Under the pieces are notes generated by a model. It was given only the letters and a program-made list of their open reading frames with translations. It was not told the origin of the DNA and made no database searches. Of a stretch of DNA of 38,091 nucleotides, positions 2,015-38,091 are shown piece by piece. The DNA comes from a virus: the IMG/VR virus record IMGVR_UViG_3300022752_000181, positions 1-38,091 of that record. One strand, written 5' to 3'. A program made the position numbers and the translations under genes. How positions within the stretch are numbered: position 1 is the first letter of the stretch; the number at the start of each line of letters is the position of its first letter.

Positions 2015-2039
2015 GTTAAAATACCAAAGGGAGATTAGG

Positions 2040-2825: not shown

Positions 2826-2832
2826 GGAAAAA

Positions 2833-9923: not shown

Positions 9924-10091
9924 ATGAAAATAGGCAGTAAGTGGTATGGCAGCAATGGAGATATGTTTGAAATAGATGATATTAGAGTAATACTGGGTGA
10001 AACCTGGGTATTTTACACTAATACTTTTACAATGAAATCTTATAATTGTTTAAAAGGCGCTTTTGTTCTTAGGTTTAGGCAAATTTCGTAA
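9924..10091 (+). CDS. 55-residue phage protein, MKIGSKWYG type
   Basis: MKIGSKWYGSNGDMFEIDDI, then a strand-rich middle (ETWVFYTN) and the end AFVLRFRQIS. I know the pattern (a small beta-strand protein ending in x-F-x-x-R-F-R) from many phages, without assigned function. It looks like a small barrel of about four strands. The last 17 bases overlap the 3' end of the convergent radical SAM gene on the other strand. Confidence 0.7.
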   Translation: MKIGSKWYGSNGDMFEIDDIRVILGETWVFYTNTFTMKSYNCLKGAFVLRFRQIS

Positions 10092-10932
10092 TCTGTTGAT
10101 CATCAGAATTAACACAGGCTAACATTTTGCAAATTGATGCTTGTGTAGGAAAATTTAAATCATTCCATATATTGCCTAAATGTGTGTTATTACAGGCACT
10201 ACCTGATACCCAACCGTTATAACTGATAAACAATCTTTCTATTCCTGTATTACATAGTTTTCCTGTAAAGCTTGGATTTATTTTTATTTGCTCTTCAAAC
10301 CTTTGAGAAAATGTTGTATTTTCTAAATGCTCAATATCATCTACTAATTGTTGTCCTCTCAACCTGAATAATTGTTCTTTTGTATACTGGTATATTCCAA
10401 CCGTTTGACTAGCCTCTTTGTACAATTCTATTTTGTTTACTTTAATGTCCAACTCGTTTTCTAAACTTTCAGCCTGATTTAAATCTATATCAAAAAAATC
10501 AGGACGTATAGGTTTTATTACATTTATATTTTTATTATTTTTTTGAAATGTTTGAATTATATACTTTATTAAATTAGGGTTTTGCCAATAATGATAAGTT
10601 AAATTTATTTGATCAACATTTGGTTCAATTGCCCACCAATCTAACCATTGATAACCACCATTTGTGTTTAAAGTAATATGTCCTTTATGGTCTTTGCAAG
10701 TTTTTAGAATTTTTACAAATCCGTCAATTTCTAAAGGTTCTCCCCCATCGAATACCCAATTAATAGAGTATTTTAACGACTCAAAATGATCTATTAACAA
10801 TTTAAATTTTTCTAAATACTGTTCTATAGATCTATTTTTTTCACCGTTCCAAAAATGAGAAGGACAATACGTGCATTTAGCAGAACAATAATTATGAAGA
10901 TTCCAATGAATTTTAGTGATAAGTGTTGACAT
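10075..10932 (-). CDS. Radical SAM enzyme with SPASM-like C-terminal Cys region
   Basis: 285 residues on the minus strand, the only such gene within the plus-strand block. The radical SAM iron-sulfur motif C16-x3-C20-x2-C23 (CSAKCTYC) is intact, followed by FDGGEPLE for SAM binding. The C-terminus has four more cysteines (C227, C247, C268, C273) around GWVSGSACNNTHLGNIW, a layout like the auxiliary-cluster SPASM/twitch domains of peptide- and protein-modifying enzymes. No precursor peptide gene was seen next to it. It is divergent from, and shares a 44-base intergenic region with, a 2OG-Fe(II) oxygenase gene. The substrate is unknown; the target could be a peptide, protein or nucleotide. Confidence 0.85.
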   Translation of the reverse strand: MSTLITKIHWNLHNYCSAKCTYCPSHFWNGEKNRSIEQYLEKFKLLIDHFESLKYSINWVFDGGEPLEIDGFVKILKTCKDHKGHITLNTNGGYQWLDWWAIEPNVDQINLTYHYWQNPNLIKYIIQTFQKNNKNINVIKPIRPDFFDIDLNQAESLENELDIKVNKIELYKEASQTVGIYQYTKEQLFRLRGQQLVDDIEHLENTTFSQRFEEQIKINPSFTGKLCNTGIERLFISYNGWVSGSACNNTHLGNIWNDLNFPTQASICKMLACVNSDDQQITKFA

Positions 10933-10954
10933 AAAAAAATATTTATTTTATACT
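10926..10954 (+). promoter_or_regulatory. Strong promoter in the divergent intergenic region
   Basis: TTGACA at 10926-10931 (overlapping the start codon of the minus-strand radical SAM gene) and TATACT at 10949-10954 are 17 bases apart. Transcription would start near 10961 and read the oxygenase gene at 10977. Strong use of this promoter would also interfere with initiation of the radical SAM gene. Confidence 0.7.
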
Positions 10955-10976
10955 GTGTAAAGGATATTTAAAATAT

Positions 10977-11567
10977 ATGAAATATAATTATCATTGGTAT
11001 ATAAACGAAAACTACAAAGACCCAAGTTTTGCATGGCAAGACCTATTAACCAAAGAAGAATGCGATCAAGTTATAGATTTAGGACTAAACAACCCCATTC
11101 CTATGTCTATTGGAAAAACTGGTAATGAACAAACAACAGTTGATGATAGAAAATCTAAAATTACTTGGATGCCTATACTAGATAATAACCATTGGCTGTT
11201 TGAAAAAATTGTTAGGGCAATAAACTACCAAAATAAGAAATGGTGGAATTATGATTTAGACTTTATCGAATCTTTACAATTTACAGAATACGATTCATCC
11301 TATTCAGGATATTATAAAGCTCATACTGATACAATGTATATTCAAAGATTTTCTAGAAAGCTTTCTTTTACTATTCAATTATCCGATCCTACTACATACG
11401 AGGGAGGAGATTTAAAAATCTTCAAATCAGAAGTAAGTGAAGAAACAATTAAAACGCAAGGAACAATAATCTTCTTTCCTAGTTTTACACTACACGAAGT
11501 TACACCGGTGACAAATGGAACTAGATATAGTCTTGTCGGTTGGGTCGTTGGTCCAAAATTTAAATAA
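10977..11567 (+). CDS. 2OG-Fe(II) oxygenase (prolyl 4-hydroxylase/PiuC-like)
   Basis: 196 residues with the iron-binding triad H116-x-D118 (YYKAHTDTM) and H173 (FTLHEVTP). R183 (NGTRYSLVGWVVG) is positioned to bind 2-oxoglutarate. The sequence between (SFTIQLSDPTTYEGGDLKI) is the typical double-stranded beta-helix core. It should use O2 and 2-oxoglutarate to hydroxylate a protein side chain or small molecule; similar genes are widespread in cyanophages and pelagiphages with unsettled targets. It has its own promoter and is AT-rich relative to the QueE gene that follows 24 bases later. Confidence 0.88.
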   Translation: MKYNYHWYINENYKDPSFAWQDLLTKEECDQVIDLGLNNPIPMSIGKTGNEQTTVDDRKSKITWMPILDNNHWLFEKIVRAINYQNKKWWNYDLDFIESLQFTEYDSSYSGYYKAHTDTMYIQRFSRKLSFTIQLSDPTTYEGGDLKIFKSEVSEETIKTQGTIIFFPSFTLHEVTPVTNGTRYSLVGWVVGPKFK

Positions 11568-11590
11568 AAATTTACTAATTTAAAATAAAC

Positions 11591-12448
11591 ATGAGCAAAA
11601 TTAAAATATCAGAATTATTTTATTCAATCCAAGGCGAGGGTCGCTATATGGGTGTACCCTCAGTATTTCTACGTACATTCGGTTGCAATTTTACCTGCGA
11701 CGGATTTGGCATGCCTAGAGGAGAATTATCAAATGAACGGAACTTGGCTGCAGATAGGATTATCCAGTTTAAGCAATATAGAGATCTTCCACTTGTTCAT
11801 ACCGGTTGCGATAGTTACGCTAGTTGGGATCCTCGGTTCAAAGACTTTTCACCAGTTCTTACAACAGATGCGATTGCGGAGGCAATCATCGAAACACTCC
11901 CATACAAAAGATGGATGAGAGAACATCTGGTAATTACAGGTGGGGAGCCTTTGCTGAGTTGGCAACGAGCATACCCTGATCTACTAAATCATCCTAAAAT
12001 GGATGAACTCAGGGAAATTACTTTCGAGACCAACGGCACTCAACGCCTTACTCCTGACTTCAAAGCATATCTACAAGAATGGCGGTGGAAGCATGAAGGA
12101 TTTATTGACAGACAAATTACTTTCAGTGTTAGTGCTAAACTTCCTGGTAGTGGTGAAAAGTGGGAAGAAGCAATCAAACCCGATGTGGTCTGTGATTATG
12201 AATCAGTAGGTTGGACCTATCTCAAATTCGTAGTTGCCACACAAGAAGACATTCAAGATGCTCTCAAAGCCACAATGGAATATCGTGATGCAGGGTTTGA
12301 AGGTGAAGTCTATATGATGCCAGTCGGTGGCGTAGAGAGTGTCTATAGTATGAATAATAAGAACGTGGCCTTGGCCTGTATGAAATATGGTATAAGATAT
12401 AGCGATCGACTACAGGTGCCTCTATTTAAAAACGAATGGGGAACTTAA
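11591..12448 (+). CDS. queE: 7-carboxy-7-deazaguanine synthase, QueE type (radical SAM)
   Basis: 285 residues. ISELFYSIQGEGRYMGVPS is the signature QueE start (substrate-binding Gln-Gly-Glu-Gly), followed by FLRTFGCNFTC and LVITGGEPLLSWQ for SAM. QueE converts 6-carboxytetrahydropterin to 7-carboxy-7-deazaguanine, the precursor of preQ0, queuosine and phage deazapurine DNA. The cluster cysteines appear as C32-x3-C36 and then only C73 (VHTGCDSYASWD). The usual third Cys two residues later is displaced by an insertion of about 36 residues, a layout I associate with marine phage QueE forms. No ribosome binding site is evident. QueC, FolE and a DNA transglycosylase are not in this window. Confidence 0.88.
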   Translation: MSKIKISELFYSIQGEGRYMGVPSVFLRTFGCNFTCDGFGMPRGELSNERNLAADRIIQFKQYRDLPLVHTGCDSYASWDPRFKDFSPVLTTDAIAEAIIETLPYKRWMREHLVITGGEPLLSWQRAYPDLLNHPKMDELREITFETNGTQRLTPDFKAYLQEWRWKHEGFIDRQITFSVSAKLPGSGEKWEEAIKPDVVCDYESVGWTYLKFVVATQEDIQDALKATMEYRDAGFEGEVYMMPVGGVESVYSMNNKNVALACMKYGIRYSDRLQVPLFKNEWGT

Positions 12449-15928: not shown

Positions 15929-17014
15929 ATGGCAAAGAAAGAAGTCAGCACTAATCGCACTGTTAGCCCCAATGGTGCCAAGGCAGCGATCCGTAAGGCA
16001 ATGGCTAAAAAACGTCCTATCTTTATGTGGGGCCCTCCAGGCATTGGCAAGTCAGACATTGTCAAGCAGATTGGCGCAGACCAGGATCGTGAAGTAATCG
16101 ATGTTCGATTGAGCCTTTGGGAGCCCACTGACATCAAAGGCATCCCATATTACAACAGCCAAGCTAATACTATGACTTGGGCTCCTCCTTCAGAATTGCC
16201 CACTGATCCAGACAGTAAAGCCATTCTGTTTCTTGATGAGCTGAACTCAGCGGCTCCTGCTACCCAGGCTGCGGCTTACCAACTTATTCTCAATCGTCGT
16301 GTAGGTACTTATATTCTACCCAAAGGTGTAGATATTGTGGCTGCTGGTAATCGTGAGGCAGACAAGGGCGTAACTTATCGTATGCCTGCTCCGTTGGCTA
16401 ATCGTTTTATCCATTTGGAACTTGAGGTAGATTTTGATGACTGGCTTCAGTGGGCTACCCTTAACAAGGTACATGAGCAGGTTGTAGGCTATGTTGGTTT
16501 TGCCAAACAAGATCTCTACGACTTTGATCCAAAGTCAGCAAGCCGTTCATTTGCTACTCCACGTTCTTGGTCATTCGTTAGTGATCTTTTGGAAGATGAC
16601 GATATCAGTGAAAACACGCTAACTGACTTGGTGTCAGGTGCTGTTGGTGAAGGTCTTGCTGTTAAGTTTATGGCTCACCGTAAAGTTGCCAAACAGATGC
16701 CCAAGCCTGAGGACATCCTAGCAGGCAAGGTCAAAGAGTTCACAGTAAAAGAGATCTCAGCAATGTATTCGCTGACTATCTCAATGTGCTACGAACTCCA
16801 AGAGGCAGACAAGAAGCAGGTCAAAGGTTGGGACTCTATGGCAGACAACTTCTTTGGGTTTATGATGGATAATTTCCCAACTGAATTGGTAGTTATGGGT
16901 GCCAAAGTTGCTCTAACTAACTATGCTTTGCCGTTTGACGCCAGCAAGTTGAAGAACTTTGATAGGTTCCACGACAAGTATGGAAAATACATTATCCAAG
17001 CAATGGAAGGATAA
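15929..17014 (+). CDS. MoxR-type AAA+ ATPase
   Basis: 361 residues. Walker A GPPGIGKS at 35-42, Walker B ILFLDE at about 99-104, sensor-1 Asn at about 140 (VAAGNREADKG), and an arginine-bearing segment MPAPLANRF. The insert WEPTDIKGIPYY after strand 2 is typical of MoxR/dynein-related AAA proteins. These form ATP-driven rings that work with a VWA partner to insert cofactors or remodel proteins, and a VWA gene follows after a terminator. Phage CobS-like proteins are the main alternative label, but the pairing fits MoxR better. The gene is less AT-rich than its neighbours and ends at its own terminator. Confidence 0.88.
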   Translation: MAKKEVSTNRTVSPNGAKAAIRKAMAKKRPIFMWGPPGIGKSDIVKQIGADQDREVIDVRLSLWEPTDIKGIPYYNSQANTMTWAPPSELPTDPDSKAILFLDELNSAAPATQAAAYQLILNRRVGTYILPKGVDIVAAGNREADKGVTYRMPAPLANRFIHLELEVDFDDWLQWATLNKVHEQVVGYVGFAKQDLYDFDPKSASRSFATPRSWSFVSDLLEDDDISENTLTDLVSGAVGEGLAVKFMAHRKVAKQMPKPEDILAGKVKEFTVKEISAMYSLTISMCYELQEADKKQVKGWDSMADNFFGFMMDNFPTELVVMGAKVALTNYALPFDASKLKNFDRFHDKYGKYIIQAMEG

Positions 17015-17039
17015 AAAGGGCCCGCAAGGGGCCTTTTTT
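17013..17039 (+). terminator. Rho-independent terminator after the MoxR gene
   Basis: The stem AAAAAGGGCCC pairs with GGGCCTTTTTT around the loop GCAAG, giving 11 base pairs including one G-T pair, and ends in a run of six T. It starts within the stop codon of the MoxR gene. The symmetry of A and T runs means it could also act on the other strand. It separates two units that each have a promoter. Confidence 0.9.
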
Positions 17040-17041
17040 GA

Positions 17042-17070
17042 TTGCTTTATTTTTTGAATGACTATATAAT
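17042..17070 (+). promoter_or_regulatory. Promoter of the VWA gene
   Basis: A perfect TATAAT at 17065-17070 lies 17 bases downstream of TTGCTT (3 of 6) at 17042-17047, immediately after the terminator. The weak -35 box suggests help from an activator or from the adjacent inverted repeat. A leader of about 25 bases with GGAGAAAC precedes the ATG at 17101. Confidence 0.55.
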
Positions 17071-17083
17071 AAGTGTATATTGT
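17061..17083. promoter_or_regulatory. Inverted repeat over -10 and start site, matching 5175-5197
   Basis: ACTATATA at 17061-17068 and TATATTGT at 17076-17083 are inverted arms with 7 of 8 pairs matched and a 7-base spacer. Arm sequences, spacing and position relative to TATAAT are the same as at 5175-5197. This is a candidate operator shared by two promoters 12 kb apart. Confidence 0.5.
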
Positions 17084-17100
17084 AAACAACGGAGAAACAA

Positions 17101-18375
17101 ATGACTTCAGTGATGAAAAGTGAGAAACTCAAAAAAGTAAAATGGGAAGGTAAGACTTTTAATTCTCAAGAGAAGGCACGTATTTTGGATAAACTTATCA
17201 CTGCCCGTGTAGGTTTGCTATTGCGTCATCCATTCTTTGGTAATTTGGCAACTCGTATGCATATGATTGATGCTTCGGATTGGTGCCAGACTTTGGCCAC
17301 TGACGGCAGGAATTTCTACTTCAATTATGGGTTTGTAAATGAACTCAGTCCCAAAGAATGTGAGTTTGGCTTTGCTCACGAAGTCCTACATAATATCTTT
17401 GATCATATGGGCCGTCGTGAAGGTCGTGATCCCATGCTGTCAAACATTGCCGCAGACTATGCCGCTAACCAAATTCTAAAAGATGAGAAGATTGGAACAG
17501 TGCCTACCTGGATCAAAATCTTCCAAGATGACAAGTATCGTGGTAAGAGCTACGAGGAAATCTATGCCGACCTCTACGAGAAAGCAGAGAAAATTGATCT
17601 TGGAGAATTAGGCGAACTCCTTGATGATCACCTTGATGATGAGGACGATGATGGGGACGGCGACTGTGAAAATGGTAATAAACAAGGAAAAGGTCGCCCT
17701 CGTTTGAGCAAAGAAGCACGCCAAAAGATTCGTGACGAAATCAAAGAGGCTATGATTGCCGCGGCACAGAGTGCCGGTGCAGGTAAAGTTCCGGCAGGAA
17801 TCCAGCGTATGATCAAGGACTTAACTGAGCCTAAAATGGATTGGCGTCAGTTATTACGTATGAGTATTCAAAGTATCATCAAAAGCAATTTCAGTTTTAC
17901 TCGTCCAAATCGTAAAAGCCAACATACAGGAGCAGTGCTTCCGGGCATGATGAATGAAGAAACCATTGACGTCAGTGTTGCCATTGACATGAGCGGTAGT
18001 ATCAGTGATCGTCAAGCCAACGACTTCATCAGTGAGGTCAAGGGTATTATGGATGAATATGTGGACTTTAAATTGAACTTGTGGTGTTTTGACACAGAAG
18101 TCTACAACTATGCTGAGTTCTCCGGAGATAACGCAGACGAGATCATGGACTATAAAGTCAAAGGTGGTGGTGGTACTGACTTTGTAGCCAATTGGGAGTT
18201 CATGAAAGAAAAGGGCATTGAGCCCAAACGCTTCATTATGTTTACAGATGGTTATCCATGTGGTGACTGGGGCGACGAGGACTATTGCGAAACCCTGTTT
18301 GTTATCCACGGACCTGAGGGAGGGAATTCTTCTTTAATTGTTGCTCCATTTGGCCAGACTGCCTACTACAAATGA
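17101..18375 (+). CDS. HExxH metallopeptidase-like / VWA protein (DUF2201 type)
   Basis: 424 residues. The N-terminal half has the zinc-binding HEVLH at 93-97 (FGFAHEVLHNIFDHMG) and ISNIAADYAANQIL-like sequence after it (DYAANQ), as in the metallopeptidase-like domain paired with VWA proteins. A strongly acidic Asp-rich linker follows at about residues 175-195. The C-terminal half holds the VWA fold with the metal-binding D296-M-S298-G-S300 (VAIDMSGSISDRQ) and GGGGTDF. Such proteins partner MoxR ATPases, encoded just upstream. The actual target is unknown. Promoter and inverted repeat lie in front, and it overlaps the next gene by 4 bases. Confidence 0.85.
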   Translation: MTSVMKSEKLKKVKWEGKTFNSQEKARILDKLITARVGLLLRHPFFGNLATRMHMIDASDWCQTLATDGRNFYFNYGFVNELSPKECEFGFAHEVLHNIFDHMGRREGRDPMLSNIAADYAANQILKDEKIGTVPTWIKIFQDDKYRGKSYEEIYADLYEKAEKIDLGELGELLDDHLDDEDDDGDGDCENGNKQGKGRPRLSKEARQKIRDEIKEAMIAAAQSAGAGKVPAGIQRMIKDLTEPKMDWRQLLRMSIQSIIKSNFSFTRPNRKSQHTGAVLPGMMNEETIDVSVAIDMSGSISDRQANDFISEVKGIMDEYVDFKLNLWCFDTEVYNYAEFSGDNADEIMDYKVKGGGGTDFVANWEFMKEKGIEPKRFIMFTDGYPCGDWGDEDYCETLFVIHGPEGGNSSLIVAPFGQTAYYK

Positions 18376-23352: not shown

Positions 23353-25161
23353 TTAAGTCTTTATGTAGTACCAAATTAAACCATTAGAACAAGTTTGAAT
23401 AAAATTGGGAACATTAAAAAATCCTGGTGCTACAGATCCGTATGTAGTCCCTATAATGTTAAACAATCCTGCATAGGTAGATGTTGAATATGATGATCCG
23501 TTACATGCTAAAAATCCAGATAAGTAACCGCTGGAAACAGCCGTAGAAGTTCCGTATGGAATTATACCACCAGTTTTAATTATATTTGGATATACATCTC
23601 CAAGAAAATTCTGCTTGGTTATCTTTTCTAATTGAGAAGCGGCATTACTGGTATCCAAAACAACAAGACTATAATTTGTGGGTGTTGCAATACTTCCAAT
23701 TAAAACTTGATCACTAATGGCACTTCTATGTAGTGTTGTAGTAAAGTAATAATCGGTTGATCCATCAAATTGATTGACAAAATTAGTTGCAGTGACCTGT
23801 CCTCTTAATACTAAATTTCTTTTCGTTGCTAGCCTTGTAGCGGTTCCGTATAATGTTCCATAAAAATTAGCCTGTGAGGAAGTACTTGCAAATGTAGATG
23901 CAAAAACATTTCTAAAACGTCTACCTGCACTCCCTATATCATATGCATCATTTTTAATTGGATCAACAATTAAACCTTGTCCTATAGAACTTCCTAATGT
24001 TATTCGTCCTGTCAAAGAGCTTACTCCTTGAACTGCAAGGTTGCCTACAACAGATTGATTCTTCATTACATATATACTACCACTTGTAACAAACGAATCA
24101 GTAGCCGTTGAGGATACTGTTAAATTACCTTTAAATCTGCCCGTTCCACCAACTTCTAAAGACGGACTTAATGTATTTGTAATAGTATTAATACCGATTT
24201 TTGGATTTAGAATATCAGATGAATCAAAGAATAGATAGCTATTTCCTTCAATTCCAATTTGAAATATTTTGGAATCATCGCTGAAATTAATTTTTCCCCC
24301 TATTACATCGCTATAAATTTGAACTTCCCCAGGATATAGTGCATTTTTAACAGATAAACCACTTGAACCGTTTATAACAAATGATCCTGTATGAACTTGT
24401 TTTGTAGCAACATTGTTTCTTAAAAAATCCGTAGCCCTTAAAATTCCAGTAGATCCGGTCAACAATCCTTCTGATTTTTGCACAATACCATTATATCTTG
24501 CATTATTTTTTAAACTTAAATTAGTACCAGTACTTAAAGAACTAAAACCATCAATAACTAATCTAGGTGTAAAGGCGTCAAAACTTATAATTTCAACTAC
24601 CTTTCCATTTACCCAATTTAAAATTACTGGAAATTTAATTGGTAATCCAGAAATGTCATTTTTATTGCTTTCAATTTCTAAGGCCTCTGTACCTGTCTTA
24701 TTAAAACTGGTTCCTATAGACGGACCAATTAAACGCCAAGTAGATCCATAACGTATTTTTAATTGAGAATTATTTGTATCAACCCAAACGTCACCTTCGA
24801 CAATAGTTTCTTGATATTGTTCAAATGGATCGTTGGGCTGTTGATATATACCGTTAGCAGATGGCCATCTAGAACTTGTATCGCCCCCATTGTTAACTCT
24901 TAATACTTTTCTATTTTTATCACTTGTATCATACCATAGTTGACCTTCAATAGGGCCTGACGGTGGATAAGGGCTAGCAAAATTTTCTAAAAGTTTTAAA
25001 AAATTTTGTGCAAATGAAAGACCGTAGTTAGCATATCCCGGTCCTACAAAATCTAAGCTGGTATCATAATCATTTTTACCAGATCCAGCTATAGCATCTG
25101 GAACCGATATGGTTTCACTTTTGAAAGGATCAGAATATCTTAAAATATAAGGATTTGCCAT
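23353..25161 (-). CDS. Tail fibre paralogue with C-terminal tail collar domain
   Basis: 602 residues. The N-terminal module FVGPGYANYGLSFAQNFLKL, then IEGQLWYDTSDKNRKVLRVN and GDVWVDTNNSQLKIRYGS, is shared with the two genes downstream. A middle region of repeated GxFxxN-type strands is fibre-like. The C-terminus (GGIIPYGTSTAVSSGYLSGF, LACNGSSYSTSTYAGLF, GTTYGSVAPGFFNVPNF) matches the phage tail collar domain, as in T4 gp12 short fibres. The likely role is tail attachment. The gene follows the 202-residue protein with a 2-base gap. Confidence 0.85.
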   Translation of the reverse strand: MANPYILRYSDPFKSETISVPDAIAGSGKNDYDTSLDFVGPGYANYGLSFAQNFLKLLENFASPYPPSGPIEGQLWYDTSDKNRKVLRVNNGGDTSSRWPSANGIYQQPNDPFEQYQETIVEGDVWVDTNNSQLKIRYGSTWRLIGPSIGTSFNKTGTEALEIESNKNDISGLPIKFPVILNWVNGKVVEIISFDAFTPRLVIDGFSSLSTGTNLSLKNNARYNGIVQKSEGLLTGSTGILRATDFLRNNVATKQVHTGSFVINGSSGLSVKNALYPGEVQIYSDVIGGKINFSDDSKIFQIGIEGNSYLFFDSSDILNPKIGINTITNTLSPSLEVGGTGRFKGNLTVSSTATDSFVTSGSIYVMKNQSVVGNLAVQGVSSLTGRITLGSSIGQGLIVDPIKNDAYDIGSAGRRFRNVFASTFASTSSQANFYGTLYGTATRLATKRNLVLRGQVTATNFVNQFDGSTDYYFTTTLHRSAISDQVLIGSIATPTNYSLVVLDTSNAASQLEKITKQNFLGDVYPNIIKTGGIIPYGTSTAVSSGYLSGFLACNGSSYSTSTYAGLFNIIGTTYGSVAPGFFNVPNFIQTCSNGLIWYYIKT

Positions 25162-25163
25162 GT

Positions 25164-25772
25164 TTATATCCCACTACTTAAACTTTGAATTCTAACCGTA
25201 TAATCAACCTGTATCATTCTATTCAAAGATTTTTGAACAGGATGGAAAATTACATGGGTTATAAGTGAACTTTCTAATGGATTGTTAGAATAAGAAGCCA
25301 AACCTAATTCATCAAATACAAACTGCCCTTCATTATCTGTTTGATTATCAAAAGCATATTGACCTGTTGGTTCTCCGAAGTCTAATAAACAACTGACTAA
25401 AATATCACTGTAATATGTACCTGTCCTATGCCTAACTTCCATAAAATTTCTAGCTGGATCAGGATTATTAATGTCATTAGCATCGACAATTTTAAAATAT
25501 GTTTCGCTATAAAGTCCTGAATTCGACCCTATTGTGTTTGGAGTTCTGTAAGTAATAATACCGGTAGGATCAATTCTGGTGCCTCCGTTGCCAAATTTCA
25601 TAGAATAGATCCAACCTCTATCCTGATGAGCCATTGCTCGTGCCAAACCAATGCTAAAATTTTCATAATGAATAGCATTCCGTTTATTTACAAAAACAAA
25701 ATCGGTTTGAGGATCAAATATCTTAATATGACCTTCTATACTTAATGCCCCATTTTCTATAGATTTTAACAT
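25164..25772 (-). CDS. 202-residue conserved tail structural protein
   Basis: MLKSIENGALSIEGHIKIFD, FSIGLARAMAHQDRGWIYSM, FGNGGTRIDPTGIITYRTPN and LITHVIFHPVQKSLNRMIQV make a conserved virion protein of the T4-like marine phages; I cannot assign it to a named T4 gp. It sits between the fibre genes and the large structural gene, on the same transcript. A short region before it holds AGGATAG as ribosome binding site. Beta-rich, no membrane segment. Confidence 0.7.
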   Translation of the reverse strand: MLKSIENGALSIEGHIKIFDPQTDFVFVNKRNAIHYENFSIGLARAMAHQDRGWIYSMKFGNGGTRIDPTGIITYRTPNTIGSNSGLYSETYFKIVDANDINNPDPARNFMEVRHRTGTYYSDILVSCLLDFGEPTGQYAFDNQTDNEGQFVFDELGLASYSNNPLESSLITHVIFHPVQKSLNRMIQVDYTVRIQSLSSGI

Positions 25773-27443: not shown

Positions 27444-30035
27444 TTATTCTATCCTTAATATCTTACCAAATTCATTTGTGATAGGTTCAAAGTTACCGTC
27501 TAATAATCTAGGATCTCCACCATAGAAATATGTATCAGGAAGATCAGCTTCTTTTTCTCTAATAAACGTTGTTTGTCTAACATTACTAGTTAATAAAGAT
27601 TCGGTACCTGTCCAAATTTTACCCTTTCTATGGATAATTTCTAATTTTACATTAGATTGAAGTTTGTCTCCAATATTTAACTGAATCTGTTGGGTCAGTG
27701 GCGAAGAAGTTGAAATATAAAAATCAGGACCTATTGTTAGTAATTCTGTAGAAGTTGCATCGTTATACATATATCTTGTTGTCTTGTATAACGGTTTACC
27801 TCCAAATAAAACATTTATTTGGTCTGATAAATTAACATTCAAATCAAGTGTCATCCCATAAGACCCTGAAGTTGTGGCTGTAAATAATGGGATAATATAG
27901 GTAGTTGTATTTGTTGTAAGAGTTGAATAATAATAAACAGTATCAAATGCGCCAGGAATAGTCTGTTGAATTCCCTGATCTACTACTCTTGTTCCGGGTT
28001 CAGATGTATATGATGGAGAAGTTCCTAACGTTCCTCTTCTAAGATCGCTTACAAATCCATCGCCTCTTGAAAAAAATTCAATTCTTTCCCTATCTATTAA
28101 GGCTACACCTGGAATATTTTTTGCAGCATTGGCAGGGCTTAGTCTAAAATCTTCAAACAATTTTATAGAATTTGACTCTTCATTTAAATATTCGGTTAAA
28201 AATGTTGTATGATCCCTAGATAACCTTTTATATGATGATCTGTTATAAAAGTCATTAAAAATTCTATATCCGTATAATCTATTAACACCCTCTGGTTTTT
28301 GTAGAGAAGTAATTACAATTTCTGGAGAATTTTCAAAACTAAATCTATCTGCTAGTTCTACAGTCCTTTGATCTGCCAAGACAACAAAATCATATCTATG
28401 AACTAACGGAATGCCATTAGCATATACCCAAACATAGTTATCATCTATAATTGGCCTAATAAATTTAAACCTTCTACTGGGATTCCACGCATACCTTTCA
28501 GTTTCCATAAACAATCTATCATTAGCATTAAATGTAACGACTCTAACTGTTGATAATGGCTGTACTGATGAAAAATATAAAATATTATTGGCTATATAAT
28601 AATCATATTCAGAGCCTGTATATTTTAAACTTGTGATAGAAATGTATGTACCGTTGGCAAATATACCAGATAACAAGATAATTCTATTGTTGACAAAATC
28701 AAAATTAAAATCATAACCAGTTCTTATTCGTTGCCCGTTAGCGTAGACAAAAATATCATCTATTGTAAAATAATTTGGGGGATATGTAACCCCATTGTCA
28801 AAAAAAGAAAACACGGTCTGAAAATTTTCTAAGATATAATTACTTACATGAGGTGGAACTAAACGTTTCCTGACTGTGTTACCTAAACCTAAACCTATTT
28901 CAACAATGGCCTTATCACTGTAAGGTTGCCAAGACCCCGGAACTTTTAACAATTCAATTGTTTGAGAATTATCAATTGTGTAATAGTTTTCAAAAATTCT
29001 GTTGAATCTTACTTCTTCTGTATCGAAAAACCATGCTTCTAAAAGATGATCTCCTAATGTTAGATTATAAAAATGTAAGGATGCACGATAACTTTGACTT
29101 TGAGTGTCATCTATGATAGTTTTATCCCATTCTCTTTCTATCATATAACCAGAATCAGTGCTTGTAGTAATTTGTTTCACTTCTTGACCATTATCAAGAA
29201 CATAGACATATCTTAAATCATCATAGGACATTAGGCTACCTAAAATTGAAAAATTATTAGTAGCAGTATGAGTAATAAAAACACTATTAGAATCTATTAG
29301 ACCAACACCACCAATTTTAATCATTGAATAACCTGCATAACCACTAACCTCTTGAGGAGGCATGATTATGCTTTTACCTTGAATATAAAATTGATTACTT
29401 GTTGTAAAATTTGTGCTTGTATACCTATTAAAAATTTTATTGTTAAATGTTAAAAAAAATCCTCCGATAGCTTCTTGTATAATAGAAATTTGTTGTGTTA
29501 CTGTGGTTCCTGCAATAACTGGAATTGCTCCAGATATCATTGTACCATAGGTTTCATTTTCTCTTGTATAAACTTCTATCCCTAAACTGTCAGTGGTATG
29601 CCCAGGAACAAATTCCTCAGGCGCATAATCGGAATACGGAGACATAAATTTATCACCATCAATAACAATATCGGCAGTGGCTGTATCTCTAGCATTTGAA
29701 ATTTGGCCATTAGCCCAATTACCTCCAGAAATAGACTTATCTAAAACAGCAGGTTCAAAATCAGTCTTCCAAAATTCGATTGATGGATCAGTAAAAATAG
29801 TACCTGTTATGTTATAACAAACACCTGTATTTAAATTGTTAACCCGTACAATAGCCCTACCTTGTACATAAGTATCATTAATAAGTTGAAACCAAATTGT
29901 TGAACTATTGTTTGGATTAGTAGCAGACAACAAAGTATTATCTACATAAATTGTAGACTTGGCAATTTCAGAACTAGGATTATCTGTATAAATTAATACA
30001 GATCTACTTGTGCTTATCCAATCTACAATTTTCAT
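27444..30035 (-). CDS. 863-residue virion structural protein with repeated VYANG modules
   Basis: The protein holds two similar modules: DDIFVYANGQRIRTGYDFNF then FVNNRIILLSGIFANG, and DNYVWVYANGIPLVHRYDF then ADQRTVELADRF. Each is about 80-100 residues and looks like a small beta domain. Near residue 620-690 a stretch with RERIEFFSRGD and LRRGTLGTSP is typical of phage tail proteins. The C-terminus is rich in Ile/Thr strands. It overlaps the giant gene by 4 bases (30032-30035), so both are on the same transcript. Likely tail or fibre component; exact role unknown. Confidence 0.72.
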   Translation of the reverse strand: MKIVDWISTSRSVLIYTDNPSSEIAKSTIYVDNTLLSATNPNNSSTIWFQLINDTYVQGRAIVRVNNLNTGVCYNITGTIFTDPSIEFWKTDFEPAVLDKSISGGNWANGQISNARDTATADIVIDGDKFMSPYSDYAPEEFVPGHTTDSLGIEVYTRENETYGTMISGAIPVIAGTTVTQQISIIQEAIGGFFLTFNNKIFNRYTSTNFTTSNQFYIQGKSIIMPPQEVSGYAGYSMIKIGGVGLIDSNSVFITHTATNNFSILGSLMSYDDLRYVYVLDNGQEVKQITTSTDSGYMIEREWDKTIIDDTQSQSYRASLHFYNLTLGDHLLEAWFFDTEEVRFNRIFENYYTIDNSQTIELLKVPGSWQPYSDKAIVEIGLGLGNTVRKRLVPPHVSNYILENFQTVFSFFDNGVTYPPNYFTIDDIFVYANGQRIRTGYDFNFDFVNNRIILLSGIFANGTYISITSLKYTGSEYDYYIANNILYFSSVQPLSTVRVVTFNANDRLFMETERYAWNPSRRFKFIRPIIDDNYVWVYANGIPLVHRYDFVVLADQRTVELADRFSFENSPEIVITSLQKPEGVNRLYGYRIFNDFYNRSSYKRLSRDHTTFLTEYLNEESNSIKLFEDFRLSPANAAKNIPGVALIDRERIEFFSRGDGFVSDLRRGTLGTSPSYTSEPGTRVVDQGIQQTIPGAFDTVYYYSTLTTNTTTYIIPLFTATTSGSYGMTLDLNVNLSDQINVLFGGKPLYKTTRYMYNDATSTELLTIGPDFYISTSSPLTQQIQLNIGDKLQSNVKLEIIHRKGKIWTGTESLLTSNVRQTTFIREKEADLPDTYFYGGDPRLLDGNFEPITNEFGKILRIE

Positions 30036-33000
30036 ATTAATCCTTCAACAGAGCTAATTCTACATCTATAAGATCCAGAAACTATAACAGGACCACCAGA
30101 TGTTGTAGATAATTCAATTATTAAATTAAATCCAGCATTGGCAGCAAGTCCTGTACTTGTTGTATATGAACCAGACGCATACCAACCGTATTCTCCTCCA
30201 CTAGTATAAGATTCGGCTGTACTTATTGTAACCCAAGATCCCTGTATTGGTGTAAATCCATTCAGGATTACATCAGAAGATGTAATTGCAGTTGCGAACC
30301 CCGGCCCGGTTACTCTAACATTACCTTGCCATAGGGAATCTGTTGGTTCAACAGTTGCTCTTACATATAAACCACTCAATGCTGCGGAATTAAGTGAATA
30401 TTTTTCATTAGCATCGTTTGGCTTCGTAGATGGACTCATTCCATACGGGGAATTTTCTAAAGCAAATGTTCCAGAATTTAAGATCCTAACTCTTGTAAAT
30501 GCCTTGTTACCTGAATAAGCATATGACCAAAGTTTTTTATTGCCAAAGAATGGAACAATAGAATCTCTTACATCAATGTCAATAAATGTTGATGTATTAC
30601 CAATTAGAGATAATCTCCATGTCTCTAAAGGTTCAAAACCTTCCCCTGCAACGTCAGGCAGTGCACCAATCTTAATTTCTCCAATTTGAAACCCGCTATA
30701 AAATGGCGCACCATCGACCATTACAAAAGTTCCAGTAAAACTGGTTGTAAAAACTCCATTAACCGTTATATCATTGATATTTAAATTTCCTATTTGTTGA
30801 GTAAGTGTCCATGCTATTTGTGTGCCAACTGGTATGTTGATAGTCTTTAAGAAAATGGTTGTTGAGCTACCTTCGTAAATGGAAGTTGCAGAGGAAAATA
30901 ATTGATAAGTTGCTTGACCAGTAATACTGGTATCGATTATGTTAATAGAAGCTGTTGCAACATAATTTGTATTTGTCCCTTGAATAACATTTTGATATGT
31001 CATTAAATTTAGGTATAACTTTTCCAATCCTTCAGTTGTAAAATCTTCTCTTAATTGAATGTTAAAGGTAATAGGAAGATCAGTAGGTTGTTTAATTATT
31101 ATTTCAGTGGTAGGTTGACTGAATACTATTTCGTTATTAATGTTAGTACCGGTAGCAATAATTTGATAAACTCTTCCGTTACTGCCGAAATCGACATTTG
31201 TTGCAGTTGTGGCTGTAATTACAGCATAAATTATATCACCTTCTACTGCACTAGTAACAGGATTACCTTGGTAATCAATCAATGACATACTATAGGTTGC
31301 TGTATTAGATGGTTTTGATAAAAATGTCATACGTTGAGTAGCTACAGGTATTGAACTAGGAGTCCCTGCTGTTATGTAAGAAATAAGATTTAGATCAAAA
31401 AGTTTAGGAGTTGGGCTTGAAAATACAGTGTCGAATGTTGTCAAATTGAAGGATAAAGGCAAAGACAAAGCCGCATTAGTGATAATTCCAGAGAGACCAC
31501 CGGCAAATTCACTTGCGCTCATTCCTGGAGATCCAGGAACATTAGTTATATTGTAGGCAAACGTTCTTCCTAATCCGTAGTCTACATTTAGTCCATTAAT
31601 TACAAAAGTAGCGGTATATCCCTCTGTTATAAATGTTGAAGATGTTTCAAGTGAAAAGTCAGGAAATTTACATTCTCCTACGTAATAATTAAAACTATCT
31701 AATTTTTTATTATTTACAGCCACATCTTGCAAAATACTATAAACTCTAAATGAGCTGGTATTTGTCGTAGTGGCTTCAACATTTGTTAAGATTTGAGAGG
31801 ATTGAATATAAAAACTATTATTAGATTCAATGTTTGTTATAGTGCTAATTTGATTAAATCCAGGGGTAGTAATTCCAGAAATTTCTATAGTATCATTTTT
31901 CCTAATAGATCCAAAAAATGGATTTATTGTTTCAATTCTTACCAAGCTACCAATTGTAGTATTTGTTGAAACAGCGGACCTAATTGTATAAACAGGGGAA
32001 CTTATTATTACTTTGTTCTGAGCAGTTATAATAGATTGAACAATGGTATCTGTTCTAAAAACTTGTCCAGAAGTTACAGTGCTTACATGTAAAAAATTTA
32101 AAACTTGCCCAGGCACTATACCTGCTACGCTGGACAAAACTAATGTAGTTGTGCTTCTTTCTAATGAATTTATTAATTTATTTCTAGCATAAAAATCTAC
32201 AAAATTATCAAAACCTCCTCCATTATCAAATATTGAAGTTGATATTGTCTCCGTTCCTAATAATGGCATTGAATGATTAAAAGGCAAGGCCTGTATTAGA
32301 TTTGCAGGATATTCCATACCATACATCAATAGATTAATTTGTTTCCCAGGCATACTATATGTGGGTTCATAATAGTTTTCAATTCTATCAATTGCATTGA
32401 ATACCTTGATACTTTTTTGAAATATAATTTTTAATTCTTGACCAGCTGCTGGTGCTATGTTATTAAAAACAAATTTACTTTTATTGGTTCCTATTATTGT
32501 ACCATCTGAAAAATCAACTATATTATAGTTTTTACTTAATATTAGTTTCTTTGCCAAAGTCGGAATAATTTTATTCTTATCAGAATCGGCCATAAAAGGA
32601 AGTTCGTAGGCAATTGAAGACCCATCGGTAGTTGTGGTAAAAGTCACAACTTTATCACCAAGTTCTCCAATTCGACTATTTCTATCGAATCTTAAAGAAA
32701 TTATATTTTTTCTAATATTTTGATTTTCTAAAATTACAGAAGCTCTTGCTGTTCTAGTTACTAATCCACCTCCAGTAAAATCTACTTTTACAGGTCCTAT
32801 TACATTCCCAATTAAATTTGCTCCCGGATCAGTAATTACTACCCTGTAAACTTTGCCATTCCTAATATAAGCCTTGGCTTCTGGTAATTTAAATCCTGGT
32901 CCAGTGTTTGCTGCTTGAAAAACTACAATAGGTTGTTGAGTATATCCTTCTCCACCATCTCCTATTACTACCTCTTTTACATAATATGAATAATTAGTTA

Positions 33001-36000
33001 TATAATTTGTATATGGATAATTGTTTAGAATTTTTTGATAGATATTTACTCCACTAAGCTGATTGTTTTCAATTTTTAGTTCAGGTGTTTCAAATCTTTC
33101 ATTGGCTTCATTATAAAATGCAGGCAGATCGAAATCAGTAACATTTAAATCTACTACATCTAGTGTTTCATAACCTGCTGTAAAATTCCTAATTTTTGTA
33201 TGGTAGGGTTTAATTTCCTTGATAAAATCTTCAATATACTCACTATTATCTACCCTGTAGGCAGAAGCTTGATCTAGTTCTGCTATTACAGCTTTTACGT
33301 TAATAAAACTGGTTTTAAATACCCAATCTAGATTTTTTTGTTCTGTCATTGCAAATTTAACAGCATTAAAAAATAATAAATTCCAGTTTACTTTGAGTTC
33401 ATTAACAAATATATCATTTTTTAGTGCATATATGATATTTGTTAGTTCTGCATCAGGAATTTGATCGTATAGGGTTTCGTCTAATGTTAAAATATCATAA
33501 GCATATTGTCCATCTGTTACATTCCATAGTGTTGATTTTAATCTAATCGTTCCTCTTTCACTAAAAATTAAATTATAATCTAAATCAAAATTACCATTTC
33601 CATTGACTTTTTCTAATACAACAAAACGTCCATCACCTACGTTGTTGATTTTGATGTAATCACCTAAAAATACATTTGTTAATTTGTTTAGTTCAAAACT
33701 ATTCTCAATTATAAAATTGAATGCCTTAAACTCTTTAAATTCATTGGCCTTATAATCAATGTATTCCCAATAAAGAGGAGTGTTATAAAGCTGTGTTCTA
33801 ATCTTATACCAATTAAAAAATGTGTAATTAAAATGATAAAGAGTCCATCTATTACCTGCATTTGTATCAATAAGTATTAGAGAAGCATGAGATCTAACCT
33901 TTAGTTCTGGAGAGAATTCATATTGTCCACCTGAATTTTCAATGATAACATTTGTGACTTGTCCAACTGAATTAATAGATGTTTTAAGCACACCAGTATG
34001 AACACCGCTGTAAATTATTTCAACCTTAGGAGGAGACTTATAGCCGTATCCTTGAGAAACAATGGTTACAGACACTATCCTACCATTAATTACATTACAA
34101 GTAAGCTTTGCTTGCTTGAAGAAATCTGTGTTTATTTCCTGTAATTGATCAAGGTCATCTACTACGAAATCATATTCGCCAGTTTCATTGTTAGGAATTT
34201 CTTCTACCTTGTTTAAATTATCAAAATTGTATGTGCCAGTTATAGGAGTGACAGCTAAAAGATCATTTGTAAAATCAATTATACTTCTAATTGCTGCAAA
34301 TCTATTTTTAAATAATGTTTGTCTAGGTCTAATAGATAATCCGTAACTATTCCTTGAATTTAATCCCTTTTCTGGTACCATATTACCTAAACTATCTCTA
34401 CCTAATAAACTATCTATAAGTTTTTTATTAAGCAAATCGTTAGGCATTGAATTTGAATCACCTTCAGATAACAACATCCACTCAGTATGTAATGGATTAC
34501 TATTTTTAAAATTATCATATTGAATGTTAAAACTCGTATTATTGCCAGATATTATTCCTTGACAATTGGCTAATGCAAACGAATTGTGACTCAAAAACTC
34601 TACATATTTCATACCCATCGATAGGGGATCTGAGATATATTGGGCGACCTGAGAGGCTGGCATTTTTCTATTTTTAATGTTAGGTACAATTGATTTGTTT
34701 TTAACCCAAAAATAGTATACATTTTCAAAACTACCTGTAACTGAATTTAATACCTGTTTTACGCTGAGTACGCTGTTATCAGGGTATTTAGGTTGACCGC
34801 TGATTCCTTTGGCCAGACCTTGATTAGTATCGGCAAGATTTGCCCATTCACTGGGAAGATATGAGCTTTTAACCCATTCGTAAACATCTATACTTGCACC
34901 GGGAAATAACTTACCCCAATTATTTTTTTTGAAAACTTCATCACCTTGTTCATACCAAATATATTTGGCATTACTTAGATCCCACCATAGACATCCTACT
35001 TCTTTATCTAACCAATTATTTTCAGTATCTATTGTTAATCCAGTAAGGGCAATACTATAAACAGCAGGATCAACAATAGATTTGTATTTTAATTCCTGTT
35101 CTGCTACTCCAGGAATTTTTCCTTTAAGAGGATCAAATAAATCAAGATAATCTATTAATTCATCCTTCTGTAAATCAATTAAAGATAATTTTCTAATAGA
35201 TTCTATGTCAACTAAAGCATCTTGATTTCTCAAACTTTTCCAAGTTAGACTATTTTCATTTTTAACCTTAAATTGATAAAATCTTGACTTATCGACCTCT
35301 GTAGGAGTATCATTATTAAAAGGAGCTCCTACAAAAATATTTTTAGATGTGCTGACTACCTTTTTACCAAATTGTCCTCCAACAAACATATCTTTGGGAA
35401 TTAATTCTTCTGCCTGAATAAATTTATCATCAAAATTATTAAAAATGTAAGCAGTGCCTGCATCCGGAACACTTGTGATAAACCTAGTTTCCTTGTTATC
35501 AAATGTGGTTTCGCCTATTAATCTTGTTCTATTTTGAAAAAACTTAACAACTTCTGATCTATTTGTCCCTAAAGATGTAATAGCCAATACTTTTTCATCT
35601 CCATTGATAGAAATAGATTCTCCAAATTTTAGATCTGTATCTTGCACAGGATTTTCTAAAATTTGTAAAATCGCATATTCGTCATTATCATTTTTTTTAT
35701 AAACTACTACTTTACCAAAAGTATTAAAAGATGTTGTTGCATTTACTGAACTAACAAACAAAAACTTTCCTGAAGGAGATATCTCCATAGTATGACCGAA
35801 TACTTCGTACTTTTTCAATGGAGAGATAATTGTTTGTTTCCAATATAAATTTTTATCAAATATTTGAATAATACCCGAATATCCATTATTAAACAAATAA
35901 TCAGGGGCTGATATTGCGATATCACTGCCGGATAAAGATCCTACAATTTTATGGCCCCAATTAACTCCGTTTGATAATACAATTGAATATGTACCTTCGA

Positions 36001-38091
36001 CTTTGATAAGGCCGATTGTAGCAGTAGCCTGCCCTATTACACTCATATTACTACCTGTAAAAGTTATCGTAGGCGGTGATGTGTAACCAGAACCTCTATT
36101 GGTAACAATTATATTTGTAACGGTTAGTCCTCCAGGAGATTTTATAGCTACACCAGTCGCTGTTGTTCCACCTGCAATATTAGGTGAAGAAAAGTTTACA
36201 TAAACAAATGAAGAAGTACTAACAGGAGCAGTAATTAGACTTACCTGACCTATACCTGATGTGTTAAAGGCATTTATATTACAATTTTGATCTATTGTGT
36301 ATGCATAAACTGTACCAGAATTTAAACCAGGAGCACCTACTAACAGTGTAGTAGATGAATTTTTATCAACTTGATTTATATAAAGGCTATGACCAAACCG
36401 AGCATTTGTTAAAGTATTTTGAAAGGGCTGAGCCAAAACAAATTTTGTTTGTTCTCCGTTGTTAGTTGAATTACGACTGCTTACCTTAACCACTCCTTCA
36501 CCCGTAGCTGTTCTTGCAGTTATTGTAGAAACAACTAAGGGTACCATTATTGAGGCTGAAGATACAGCACGAATTTTGCTTGCAGCAGGAGCACCTACAA
36601 AAAATAAATCTTTTCCTATATCATAAGCAAGAGAATATCCAAATTCAGTAGAAGTATTAGGTTGACAGTATACATTATCTATACCATTGAGGCTATTTAA
36701 CTTAAAGTCAAAATAAAATTGAATATCATTATTTTTATTTAAAGCGCCAATGTTTACCTTTCCATATTGTACTTCAAAATATCTTCTTGGATAATAAGTA
36801 GGAGCTGATATAACAATGGTTTTAGTGTAATCGCTTGCAAAAATGTCAAATCCAATTTTTTGATAAGGCGGTAAATTTCCAAACCCATATTCTATAGATG
36901 TCTCATAATTTTTTGTTTTTTCTAAAACTTGCCATTTTTTATTAGTATCTTCGTCAACCCAAACTTTACTTCCATAATCATAAAATAAAAATTCTTTGTT
37001 ATTTGATAAATCTTCAAAATTCGAAAATCTTACAGACTGAAAAGAAAACAAACTACCATAGTATTCTAAAACTTCATTTGTAATACTTACGATTTGCGAT
37101 TTAACAGAAAATTGATTTGATTTAGGAATACCTGTAACAATATAGACACCGTCTACCTGAGGACTAAACCTTATAACGGAAATAATATTACCAATTTTTA
37201 AGCCATGATTTAAATCAGTCACAAAGGTAATCTCTGCACCAGGACTACTCACAAACACACCTTTTATTTTTGCCTGTGTTAAAGAATACCTATAAACATC
37301 CCATTCTCCATTTTCTAAGAATCCTAACCAAATTGTGTTACCGTTGGTTAAAAGAGAATTATTTGCTATATCTAATACACTGTTTTTATTATAGGCCGTA
37401 GCATCAACATCTTCTATTCTTACATAACCTGCATTAAGTAATTTAAATAAATTTGTCTTATATGTTCCATCTTCTGTTAGAAATATGGAATTAATATTAA
37501 AATCTTTAGGAGTGATTAATATTTCTTTATTAGAAATATAATGAATCACATCACTAGATTGATTAGAATCTACAATTTTAATGATGTAAGGATTTTCAGT
37601 ATCAACTGCCTCTTCTAAAAGAACTTCTATTTCTTTTAAAGTACTTTCTCCACCATATGCACCTATCCTAAATGCCCATTCTTCTTTTATCTCAATCCCA
37701 GTTAAGACATTTTTATTATATTTTATAATTTTATCTATAGGTTTTTTTGTACCTTTTTCTCGTATAAACCCTTGATAAAATTTGTATTGAGCAGTTTCAT
37801 CAGGAATTAACTTATCTAAATAATTTCTAGAATTAAAACCAATAAGTTGTTTAGCAAGTCTTTGTTGATTAATATCAAAATTATCAATATCTAAACTATA
37901 AAAATCATCAAACTGATTTATCTTGTAATCAAAATTGCTTATCAATTTCTTGACGGGTTTTTTATCTAATAATGTATATTTTGTAAAATCGAAAATTTTA
38001 TCATTAATAATTGAAAACTTAGCAGAATAATATTGCCCATTAAATTGAACAACTTGACTTGGGTAATACCTCCTATAAGGCTCCCAGTCTA
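30032..38091 (-). CDS. Giant tail/adhesion protein with FG-GAP propeller and Calx-beta-like repeats (5' end missing)
   Basis: At least 2685 residues, open to the right edge. A TTG at 37945 is an artificial start, since the same frame continues upstream through DWEPYRRYYPSQVVQFNGQY with no stop. Seven repeats of the type F-G-x-S/D-x ... G/S-A-P (KIGFDIFASD, EFGYSLAYD, RFGHSLYIN, NWGHKIVG, VFGHTMEIS, KFGESISIN, QFGKKVVST) lie about 35.25-36.87 kb, as in an integrin-type beta-propeller. Three GYTSPP-like repeats occur near 36.08, 34.04 and 32.93 kb. The C-terminal 380 residues have Calx-beta-like repeats (TEGYTATFVING, IYEGSSTTIFL, EGFEPLETWRLSL). Likely a long virion adhesin; first gene of the visible structural unit. 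Confidence 0.8.
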   Translation of the reverse strand, partial: DWEPYRRYYPSQVVQFNGQYYSAKFSIINDKIFDFTKYTLLDKKPVKKLISNFDYKINQFDDFYSLDIDNFDINQQRLAKQLIGFNSRNYLDKLIPDETAQYKFYQGFIREKGTKKPIDKIIKYNKNVLTGIEIKEEWAFRIGAYGGESTLKEIEVLLEEAVDTENPYIIKIVDSNQSSDVIHYISNKEILITPKDFNINSIFLTEDGTYKTNLFKLLNAGYVRIEDVDATAYNKNSVLDIANNSLLTNGNTIWLGFLENGEWDVYRYSLTQAKIKGVFVSSPGAEITFVTDLNHGLKIGNIISVIRFSPQVDGVYIVTGIPKSNQFSVKSQIVSITNEVLEYYGSLFSFQSVRFSNFEDLSNNKEFLFYDYGSKVWVDEDTNKKWQVLEKTKNYETSIEYGFGNLPPYQKIGFDIFASDYTKTIVISAPTYYPRRYFEVQYGKVNIGALNKNNDIQFYFDFKLNSLNGIDNVYCQPNTSTEFGYSLAYDIGKDLFFVGAPAASKIRAVSSASIMVPLVVSTITARTATGEGVVKVSSRNSTNNGEQTKFVLAQPFQNTLTNARFGHSLYINQVDKNSSTTLLVGAPGLNSGTVYAYTIDQNCNINAFNTSGIGQVSLITAPVSTSSFVYVNFSSPNIAGGTTATGVAIKSPGGLTVTNIIVTNRGSGYTSPPTITFTGSNMSVIGQATATIGLIKVEGTYSIVLSNGVNWGHKIVGSLSGSDIAISAPDYLFNNGYSGIIQIFDKNLYWKQTIISPLKKYEVFGHTMEISPSGKFLFVSSVNATTSFNTFGKVVVYKKNDNDEYAILQILENPVQDTDLKFGESISINGDEKVLAITSLGTNRSEVVKFFQNRTRLIGETTFDNKETRFITSVPDAGTAYIFNNFDDKFIQAEELIPKDMFVGGQFGKKVVSTSKNIFVGAPFNNDTPTEVDKSRFYQFKVKNENSLTWKSLRNQDALVDIESIRKLSLIDLQKDELIDYLDLFDPLKGKIPGVAEQELKYKSIVDPAVYSIALTGLTIDTENNWLDKEVGCLWWDLSNAKYIWYEQGDEVFKKNNWGKLFPGASIDVYEWVKSSYLPSEWANLADTNQGLAKGISGQPKYPDNSVLSVKQVLNSVTGSFENVYYFWVKNKSIVPNIKNRKMPASQVAQYISDPLSMGMKYVEFLSHNSFALANCQGIISGNNTSFNIQYDNFKNSNPLHTEWMLLSEGDSNSMPNDLLNKKLIDSLLGRDSLGNMVPEKGLNSRNSYGLSIRPRQTLFKNRFAAIRSIIDFTNDLLAVTPITGTYNFDNLNKVEEIPNNETGEYDFVVDDLDQLQEINTDFFKQAKLTCNVINGRIVSVTIVSQGYGYKSPPKVEIIYSGVHTGVLKTSINSVGQVTNVIIENSGGQYEFSPELKVRSHASLILIDTNAGNRWTLYHFNYTFFNWYKIRTQLYNTPLYWEYIDYKANEFKEFKAFNFIIENSFELNKLTNVFLGDYIKINNVGDGRFVVLEKVNGNGNFDLDYNLIFSERGTIRLKSTLWNVTDGQYAYDILTLDETLYDQIPDAELTNIIYALKNDIFVNELKVNWNLLFFNAVKFAMTEQKNLDWVFKTSFINVKAVIAELDQASAYRVDNSEYIEDFIKEIKPYHTKIRNFTAGYETLDVVDLNVTDFDLPAFYNEANERFETPELKIENNQLSGVNIYQKILNNYPYTNYITNYSYYVKEVVIGDGGEGYTQQPIVVFQAANTGPGFKLPEAKAYIRNGKVYRVVITDPGANLIGNVIGPVKVDFTGGGLVTRTARASVILENQNIRKNIISLRFDRNSRIGELGDKVVTFTTTTDGSSIAYELPFMADSDKNKIIPTLAKKLILSKNYNIVDFSDGTIIGTNKSKFVFNNIAPAAGQELKIIFQKSIKVFNAIDRIENYYEPTYSMPGKQINLLMYGMEYPANLIQALPFNHSMPLLGTETISTSIFDNGGGFDNFVDFYARNKLINSLERSTTTLVLSSVAGIVPGQVLNFLHVSTVTSGQVFRTDTIVQSIITAQNKVIISSPVYTIRSAVSTNTTIGSLVRIETINPFFGSIRKNDTIEISGITTPGFNQISTITNIESNNSFYIQSSQILTNVEATTTNTSSFRVYSILQDVAVNNKKLDSFNYYVGECKFPDFSLETSSTFITEGYTATFVINGLNVDYGLGRTFAYNITNVPGSPGMSASEFAGGLSGIITNAALSLPLSFNLTTFDTVFSSPTPKLFDLNLISYITAGTPSSIPVATQRMTFLSKPSNTATYSMSLIDYQGNPVTSAVEGDIIYAVITATTATNVDFGSNGRVYQIIATGTNINNEIVFSQPTTEIIIKQPTDLPITFNIQLREDFTTEGLEKLYLNLMTYQNVIQGTNTNYVATASINIIDTSITGQATYQLFSSATSIYEGSSTTIFLKTINIPVGTQIAWTLTQQIGNLNINDITVNGVFTTSFTGTFVMVDGAPFYSGFQIGEIKIGALPDVAGEGFEPLETWRLSLIGNTSTFIDIDVRDSIVPFFGNKKLWSYAYSGNKAFTRVRILNSGTFALENSPYGMSPSTKPNDANEKYSLNSAALSGLYVRATVEPTDSLWQGNVRVTGPGFATAITSSDVILNGFTPIQGSWVTISTAESYTSGGEYGWYASGSYTTSTGLAANAGFNLIIELSTTSGGPVIVSGSYRCRISSVEGLI

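Follow-up and report, generated by a model that had tools for sequence, protein, structure and literature searches.

Integrin propellers bind ligands, and FG-GAP propellers are already known from other viral proteins, including those of S-TIM5 and Atu_ph07. Propellers of other kinds are found in or at phage baseplates, namely the seven-bladed gp131C of phiKZ (4GBF) and the five-bladed Gp45 of phi11 (PMC4901313). The giant proteins of RaK2, PA5oct, GAP32 and Atu_ph07 are virion proteins of 3300 to 4500 aa, and these, along with a giant protein of Phosso, are homologous to the protein discussed here. The PA5oct homologue is annotated as found by ESI-MS/MS. We describe a homologue that carries an integrin-type propeller and is encoded in the window, by which we mean the whole 38,091-nucleotide stretch of the virus record IMGVR_UViG_3300022752_000181.

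The giant protein and its propeller

The giant protein of the window, P0001, is read from a frame that is open at the window edge, and its N-terminal part is missing (Table 1). It matches PHROG 10938 ("virion structural protein") with an E-value of 1.1e-103, and tblastn with P0001 returned matches in 57 phage records. Near the site corresponding to its first residues, relatives show matches to PF02839 that lie under the curated cut-off (E 1.2e-5 to 7e-3). A single-sequence search of Pfam and PDB with full-length P0001 gave no match, and PF01839 gave none in a search of the record and stayed below its cut-off on the window segment too, so the propeller signal is faint in a single sequence. The FG-GAP assignment of an earlier, sequence-only reading holds through PF14312 (FG-GAP_2), which scores 24.6 bits on the isolated window segment against a cut-off of 23 (E 2.9e-5), and finds no backing from PF01839. 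FG-GAP_2 matches 54 of 62 aligned propellers individually, with a best E-value of 2.4e-14. When a profile of these 62 propellers was compared with all solved structures, integrin alpha chains were the only proteins among the 60 matches listed, with integrin alpha-4 at the top (E 3.2e-14).

Seven FG-type units start at P0001 residues 411, 482, 564, 710, 763, 821 and 906 (window positions 36859, 36646, 36400, 35962, 35803, 35629 and 35374). With half of the family as its training set, a blade HMM gave 7 to 9 hits per propeller in the held-out half, against a mean of 0.29 in shuffled copies. The window propeller, which was among the training rows, has all seven of its units covered, with blade 2 split by an insert, and counts above seven in relatives are consistent with blades split in this way. 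Motifs conserved across the lineage are the N-terminal KVWVD/KWxV hairpin, EGLVKIS in blade 2 and TTFD in blade 6.

Table 1. Features of the giant gene and of the genes that follow it, in window coordinates.
Feature	Position	Strand	Remarks
Giant virion structural protein P0001	30032..38089	(-)	Uninterrupted ORF, 2685 aa, 5' end cut
Cut-off end of CBM5/12-like module	37958..38089	(-)	Residues 1-44, by eye; cut in window
Conserved N-core, N-terminal to propeller	36977..37957	(-)	Residues 45-371
FG-GAP propeller, seven-bladed	35225..36976	(-)	Residues 372-955
Hairpin KVWVDxDxxxKWxVxEKxxN before blade 1	36905..36976	(-)	Present family-wide
Blade 1 (KIGFDIFASD...VISAP)	36647..36859	(-)	FG unit, AF2 model, blade HMM
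Blade 2 (FGYSLAYD...FVGAP)	36401..36646	(-)	FG unit, AF2 model, blade HMM
Blade 3 (FGHSLYIN...LVGAP), bears insert	35963..36400	(-)	FG unit, AF2 model, blade HMM
Variable blade-3 insert with GYTSPP	36014..36256	(-)	Residues 612-692, mostly low confidence
Blade 4 (WGHKIVGS...AISAP)	35804..35962	(-)	FG unit, AF2 model, blade HMM
Blade 5 (FGHTMEIS...FVSS)	35630..35803	(-)	FG unit, AF2 model, blade HMM
Blade 6 (FGESISIN...AITS), conserved TTFD-containing insert	35375..35629	(-)	Family alignment, AF2 model, blade HMM
Blade 7 (FGKKVVST...FVGAP)	35225..35374	(-)	FG unit, Pfam, AF2 model, blade HMM
Conserved C-core	32990..35254	(-)	Residues 946-1700, well-predicted fold
Lineage-variable C-terminal region	30035..31789	(-)	Residues 2101-2685, three Calx-beta-like segments by eye
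Downstream protein, 863 aa	27444..30035	(-)	No family match
202 aa protein	25164..25772	(-)	PHROG 11259, E 7.7e-68
Tail-fibre-like protein, Phage Tail Collar domain	23353..25161	(-)	PF07484, E 8.3e-11

The AlphaFold2 model built from the 62-row alignment has a mean pLDDT of 85 and a pTM of 0.85. Only the blade-3 insert (residues 612 to 692) is poorly predicted, with pLDDT below 50 across most of its length, and the length of this insert differs between relatives. In a Foldseek search, the top match of the model is integrin alpha-V (E 1.1e-12, TM 0.65 by target length), and integrin chains make up all of the best 27 matches. DSSP places the strands of the model in seven groups. Together with the end-to-end match to the integrin head, these groups suggest a closed ring of blades, and the KVWVD hairpin probably takes part in its closure. 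The sequence-only reading had proposed an integrin-type propeller in a giant phage tail protein, with seven FG-GAP repeats between 35.25 and 36.87 kb, the first and last marked by KIGFDIFASD and QFGKKVVST. The PDB profile, AlphaFold2 and Foldseek agree with it on the 35.2 to 36.9 kb region, in which blade 1 is the KIGFDIFASD unit and blade 7 the FGKKVVST unit.

Calcium-binding adhesion modules had been proposed along with the propeller. The window propeller has none of the integrin-type DxDxDG loops and only 3 of the 62 family sequences contain stray matches, so calcium binding by the propeller is not supported. A GYTSPP repeat assigned to the blade inserts is present there as one copy (residue 666, in the blade-3 insert), while the other, GYKSPP at residue 1347, lies outside the propeller. 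The stretch around this second copy (window 33960-34060) matches PHROG 460, "head closure Hc2". As the motif occurs in only 5 of 95 propellers, the GxGYxSPP type looks like a small mobile module within this group of proteins.

The proposed Calx-beta-like domains at the C-terminus fared less well than the blades. PF03160 (Calx-beta) matches the C-terminus of two of five members, with a best E-value of 0.0013, and gives no match in the window, so that the resemblance is a weak one, to which a profile search of PDB did not add. The last ~110 residues of P0001 (window 30035-30370) show 44 to 46% identity to a separate downstream ORF in two related loci, L014 and L019, where the giant proteins themselves are without the window-type C-terminus. 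This is an apparent case of domain exchange between neighbouring genes.

Distribution and inheritance of the propeller

A single-sequence search for relatives of the propeller in viral contigs and phages found none, and the family was therefore reached through a conserved stretch C-terminal to it. This search confirmed 582 viral-contig candidates, of which 80 were kept, and sequence matching the window propeller was present in all 80 loci. Wider sampling from three other starting points showed the propeller to be all-or-none, with 265 loci strongly positive, 59 negative and zero intermediate. Searching by the propeller itself returned only this giant protein; the N-core was present in 80 of 80 loci and the C-core as well in 77, with the other three cut at a contig end. 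Contigs bearing the propeller reach 322 kb (L058), which makes its carriers jumbo phages. Among bacterial genome contigs, an insensitive scan with one short motif gave 214 pattern matches, none of which was confirmed.

A tree of the adjoining core was built after removal of near-copies. It places all 96 propeller-bearing rows on one side of a single branch and all 40 propeller-less rows on the other, which amounts to one change with an SH-aLRT of 100. The segments that flank the propeller are 417 to 1277 residues apart in the propeller clade and merely 25 to 75 apart in many propeller-less relatives, and for this reason we regard the propeller as a discrete, clade-defining module. Other propeller-less giants have longer segments at this site, of ~900 to 1070 residues (positions ~1700 to 3180) without recognised FG-GAP repeats in Phosso and Atu_ph07 (L001, L002), and of about 2100 residues in loci L103 and L286. 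A single gain of the propeller would be the natural reading, with loss also compatible with the unrooted tree, and vertical inheritance within the lineage is the best explanation of its distribution. Median identity to the window within the clade is 43% for the N-core, 28% for the propeller and 50% for the C-core, so the propeller diverges faster than both flanks. Of 95 relatives, only 4 have a recognisable counterpart of the C-terminal 585 residues.

Gene neighbourhood and the baseplate

In most isolates read, the giant gene adjoins a gene annotated as a gp6-like baseplate wedge subunit. A gp6-like ORF stands beside the giant gene in all nine propeller loci checked and is present in 213 of 265 by BLAST; the window's own gene at this position lies beyond the window edge. 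The gp6 annotation is itself weakly supported, with a match to T4 gp6 at an E-value of 0.01 over 78 columns and no match of the neighbour to PDB. Downstream, the 202 aa protein is conserved in the same jumbo phages (60 phage records). In Phosso, Atu_ph07 and PA5oct, the gene of its homologue comes directly after the giant gene or is separated from it by one or two small genes.

Gene order in these phages resembles the T4 series 6-7-8-9-10-11-12. That the carrier is homologous to T4 gp7 was considered and ruled unsupported, with hhalign comparisons of the N-terminal and C-core alignments to T4 gp7 negative. A fold search of PDB with the predicted C-core likewise found no solved relative. Taking these results with the weak support for gp6, we use "gp7-like" by analogy for a position after gp6, not for membership in a family. 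The neighbourhood suggests that the giant protein is located at the baseplate and it is probably a tail-tip protein.

The window holds several other genes of note. At 9-1757 there are tandem small paralogous ORFs with MNERIREL starts and HFGVEE-like ends. Two radical SAM proteins, one of them QueE-like by eye, flank a 2OG-Fe(II) oxygenase at 10075-12448, and radical SAM genes are also found near the tail genes of the propeller-less Atu_ph07 and Phosso. Adjacent genes at 15929-18375 encode an AAA ATPase (AAA_5/AAA_3) and a DUF2201 metallopeptidase/VWA protein, resembling a MoxR-VWA pair.

Possible roles of the propeller

Because the propeller occupies one fixed site and is kept in every sampled member of the clade, it probably belongs permanently to the infection machinery and is not a passing adhesin. 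On balance, we favour a role as a constant protein-protein docking platform. The phage would be an uncultivated jumbo myophage whose gene, placed where T4 has gp7, encodes a giant protein associated with the baseplate, with the integrin-alpha-type propeller held between two conserved segments of the chain. Both chain ends of a beta-propeller lie close together, which lets an existing protein accommodate one as a side domain. On the baseplate exterior, this propeller may dock, for example, a fibre or a peripheral protein whose gene lies just downstream. Host recognition would fall to the C-terminal domains, which vary between lineages. The C-terminus resembles a changing recognition module in being shared with so few relatives, and as a candidate adhesin it ranks above the propeller, being the likelier recognition part.

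Alternatively, the propeller itself may be a receptor- or glycan-binding adhesin with its variable inserts as contact loops, a possibility that we regard as less likely but as the main rival. Ligand binding by integrin propellers offers a precedent, CBM5/12-like modules lie upstream in relatives, and the faster divergence of the propeller and the varying length of its inserts keep the idea alive. At phage baseplates, the propeller cavity of the phi11 receptor-binding protein has been proposed to bind GlcNAc, and the baseplate of phiKZ also has a propeller, gp131C (PMC4901313). However, the integrin metal loops are missing and the propeller is kept without exception in 96 sampled lineages, unlike the fast-changing C-terminus with its 585 residues common to 4 of 95 relatives, which makes the label of adhesin given by the sequence-only reading doubtful. 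Universal presence in the clade and discrete insertion at a fixed position would also suit a purely architectural spacer that has no specific binding partner and serves to fill space or to stiffen the wedge, but the conserved KVWVD/KWxV, EGLVKIS and TTFD motifs suggest specific contacts and such a role is rather improbable. That the repeats arise by chance or from low complexity and form no propeller at all could be argued from the full-length window protein, which alone matches neither Pfam nor PDB. This is contradicted by the integrin profile, the AlphaFold2 and Foldseek results and the blade counts in held-out relatives, and is hardly credible.

Beyond the docking platform that we favour, it is conceivable, if quite improbable, that the propeller is an obligatory moving part that senses a fibre or the host surface, relays the contact to the wedge and triggers sheath contraction. 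If so, an integrin-like signal relay would have evolved in the phage tail of a large jumbo-phage lineage.

Comparison with known systems

The closest solved fold is the propeller of the integrin alpha chains (alpha-V, alpha-4 and alpha-IIb), which like the window propeller is made up of seven FG-GAP units. Identity in the fold alignments is 8 to 14%, and the phage propeller is without DxDxDG loops and embedded mid-protein in a structural protein, whereas that of integrin forms an extracellular head. The fold is of integrin type, but P0001 is not an integrin. In this way, a part of a phage tail protein that is fixed and defines a clade is tied to a classic adhesion-receptor fold of eukaryotes.

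The standalone FG-GAP propellers of S-TIM5 (H6WG31), Atu_ph07 (A0A2L0UZX4) and mimivirus-like and prasinovirus sequences have the same predicted fold by Foldseek. Their identity to the window propeller is below 20%, and they belong to other proteins and are not inserted in a baseplate-associated giant. In the 95 kb surrounding the baseplate genes of Atu_ph07, the "hemagglutinin" gene of this phage was not found. The window propeller matched no PHROG family, and a literature search on FG-GAP propellers in jumbo phages or in phage baseplates found no relevant paper in the library searched. Of the two baseplate propellers, phiKZ gp131C is absent among the listed sequence and fold matches of the window propeller, and phi11 Gp45 differs from its seven units in having five blades and being a trimeric receptor-binding protein.

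The giants of RaK2, GAP32, PA5oct and Atu_ph07 (PHROG 10938) are homologous to P0001 in both N-core and C-core, at about 25 to 40%, and adjoin an annotated gp6-like gene as the propeller carriers do, but they are without the propeller. The laboratory phage 121Q is a further relative that lacks it. The propeller is a simple shared character that marks a widespread uncultivated jumbo-phage lineage. It also lets a constant platform, inserted in these giant tail proteins, be separated from a C-terminus that changes fast. The two are usually lumped, and the C-terminus is the better place to seek host specificity. FG-GAP propellers in other viral proteins and other propellers at baseplates were already known; what is new is that a large clade of uncultivated jumbo phages carries an integrin-type propeller inserted, as an obligatory module, in a giant baseplate-associated protein.
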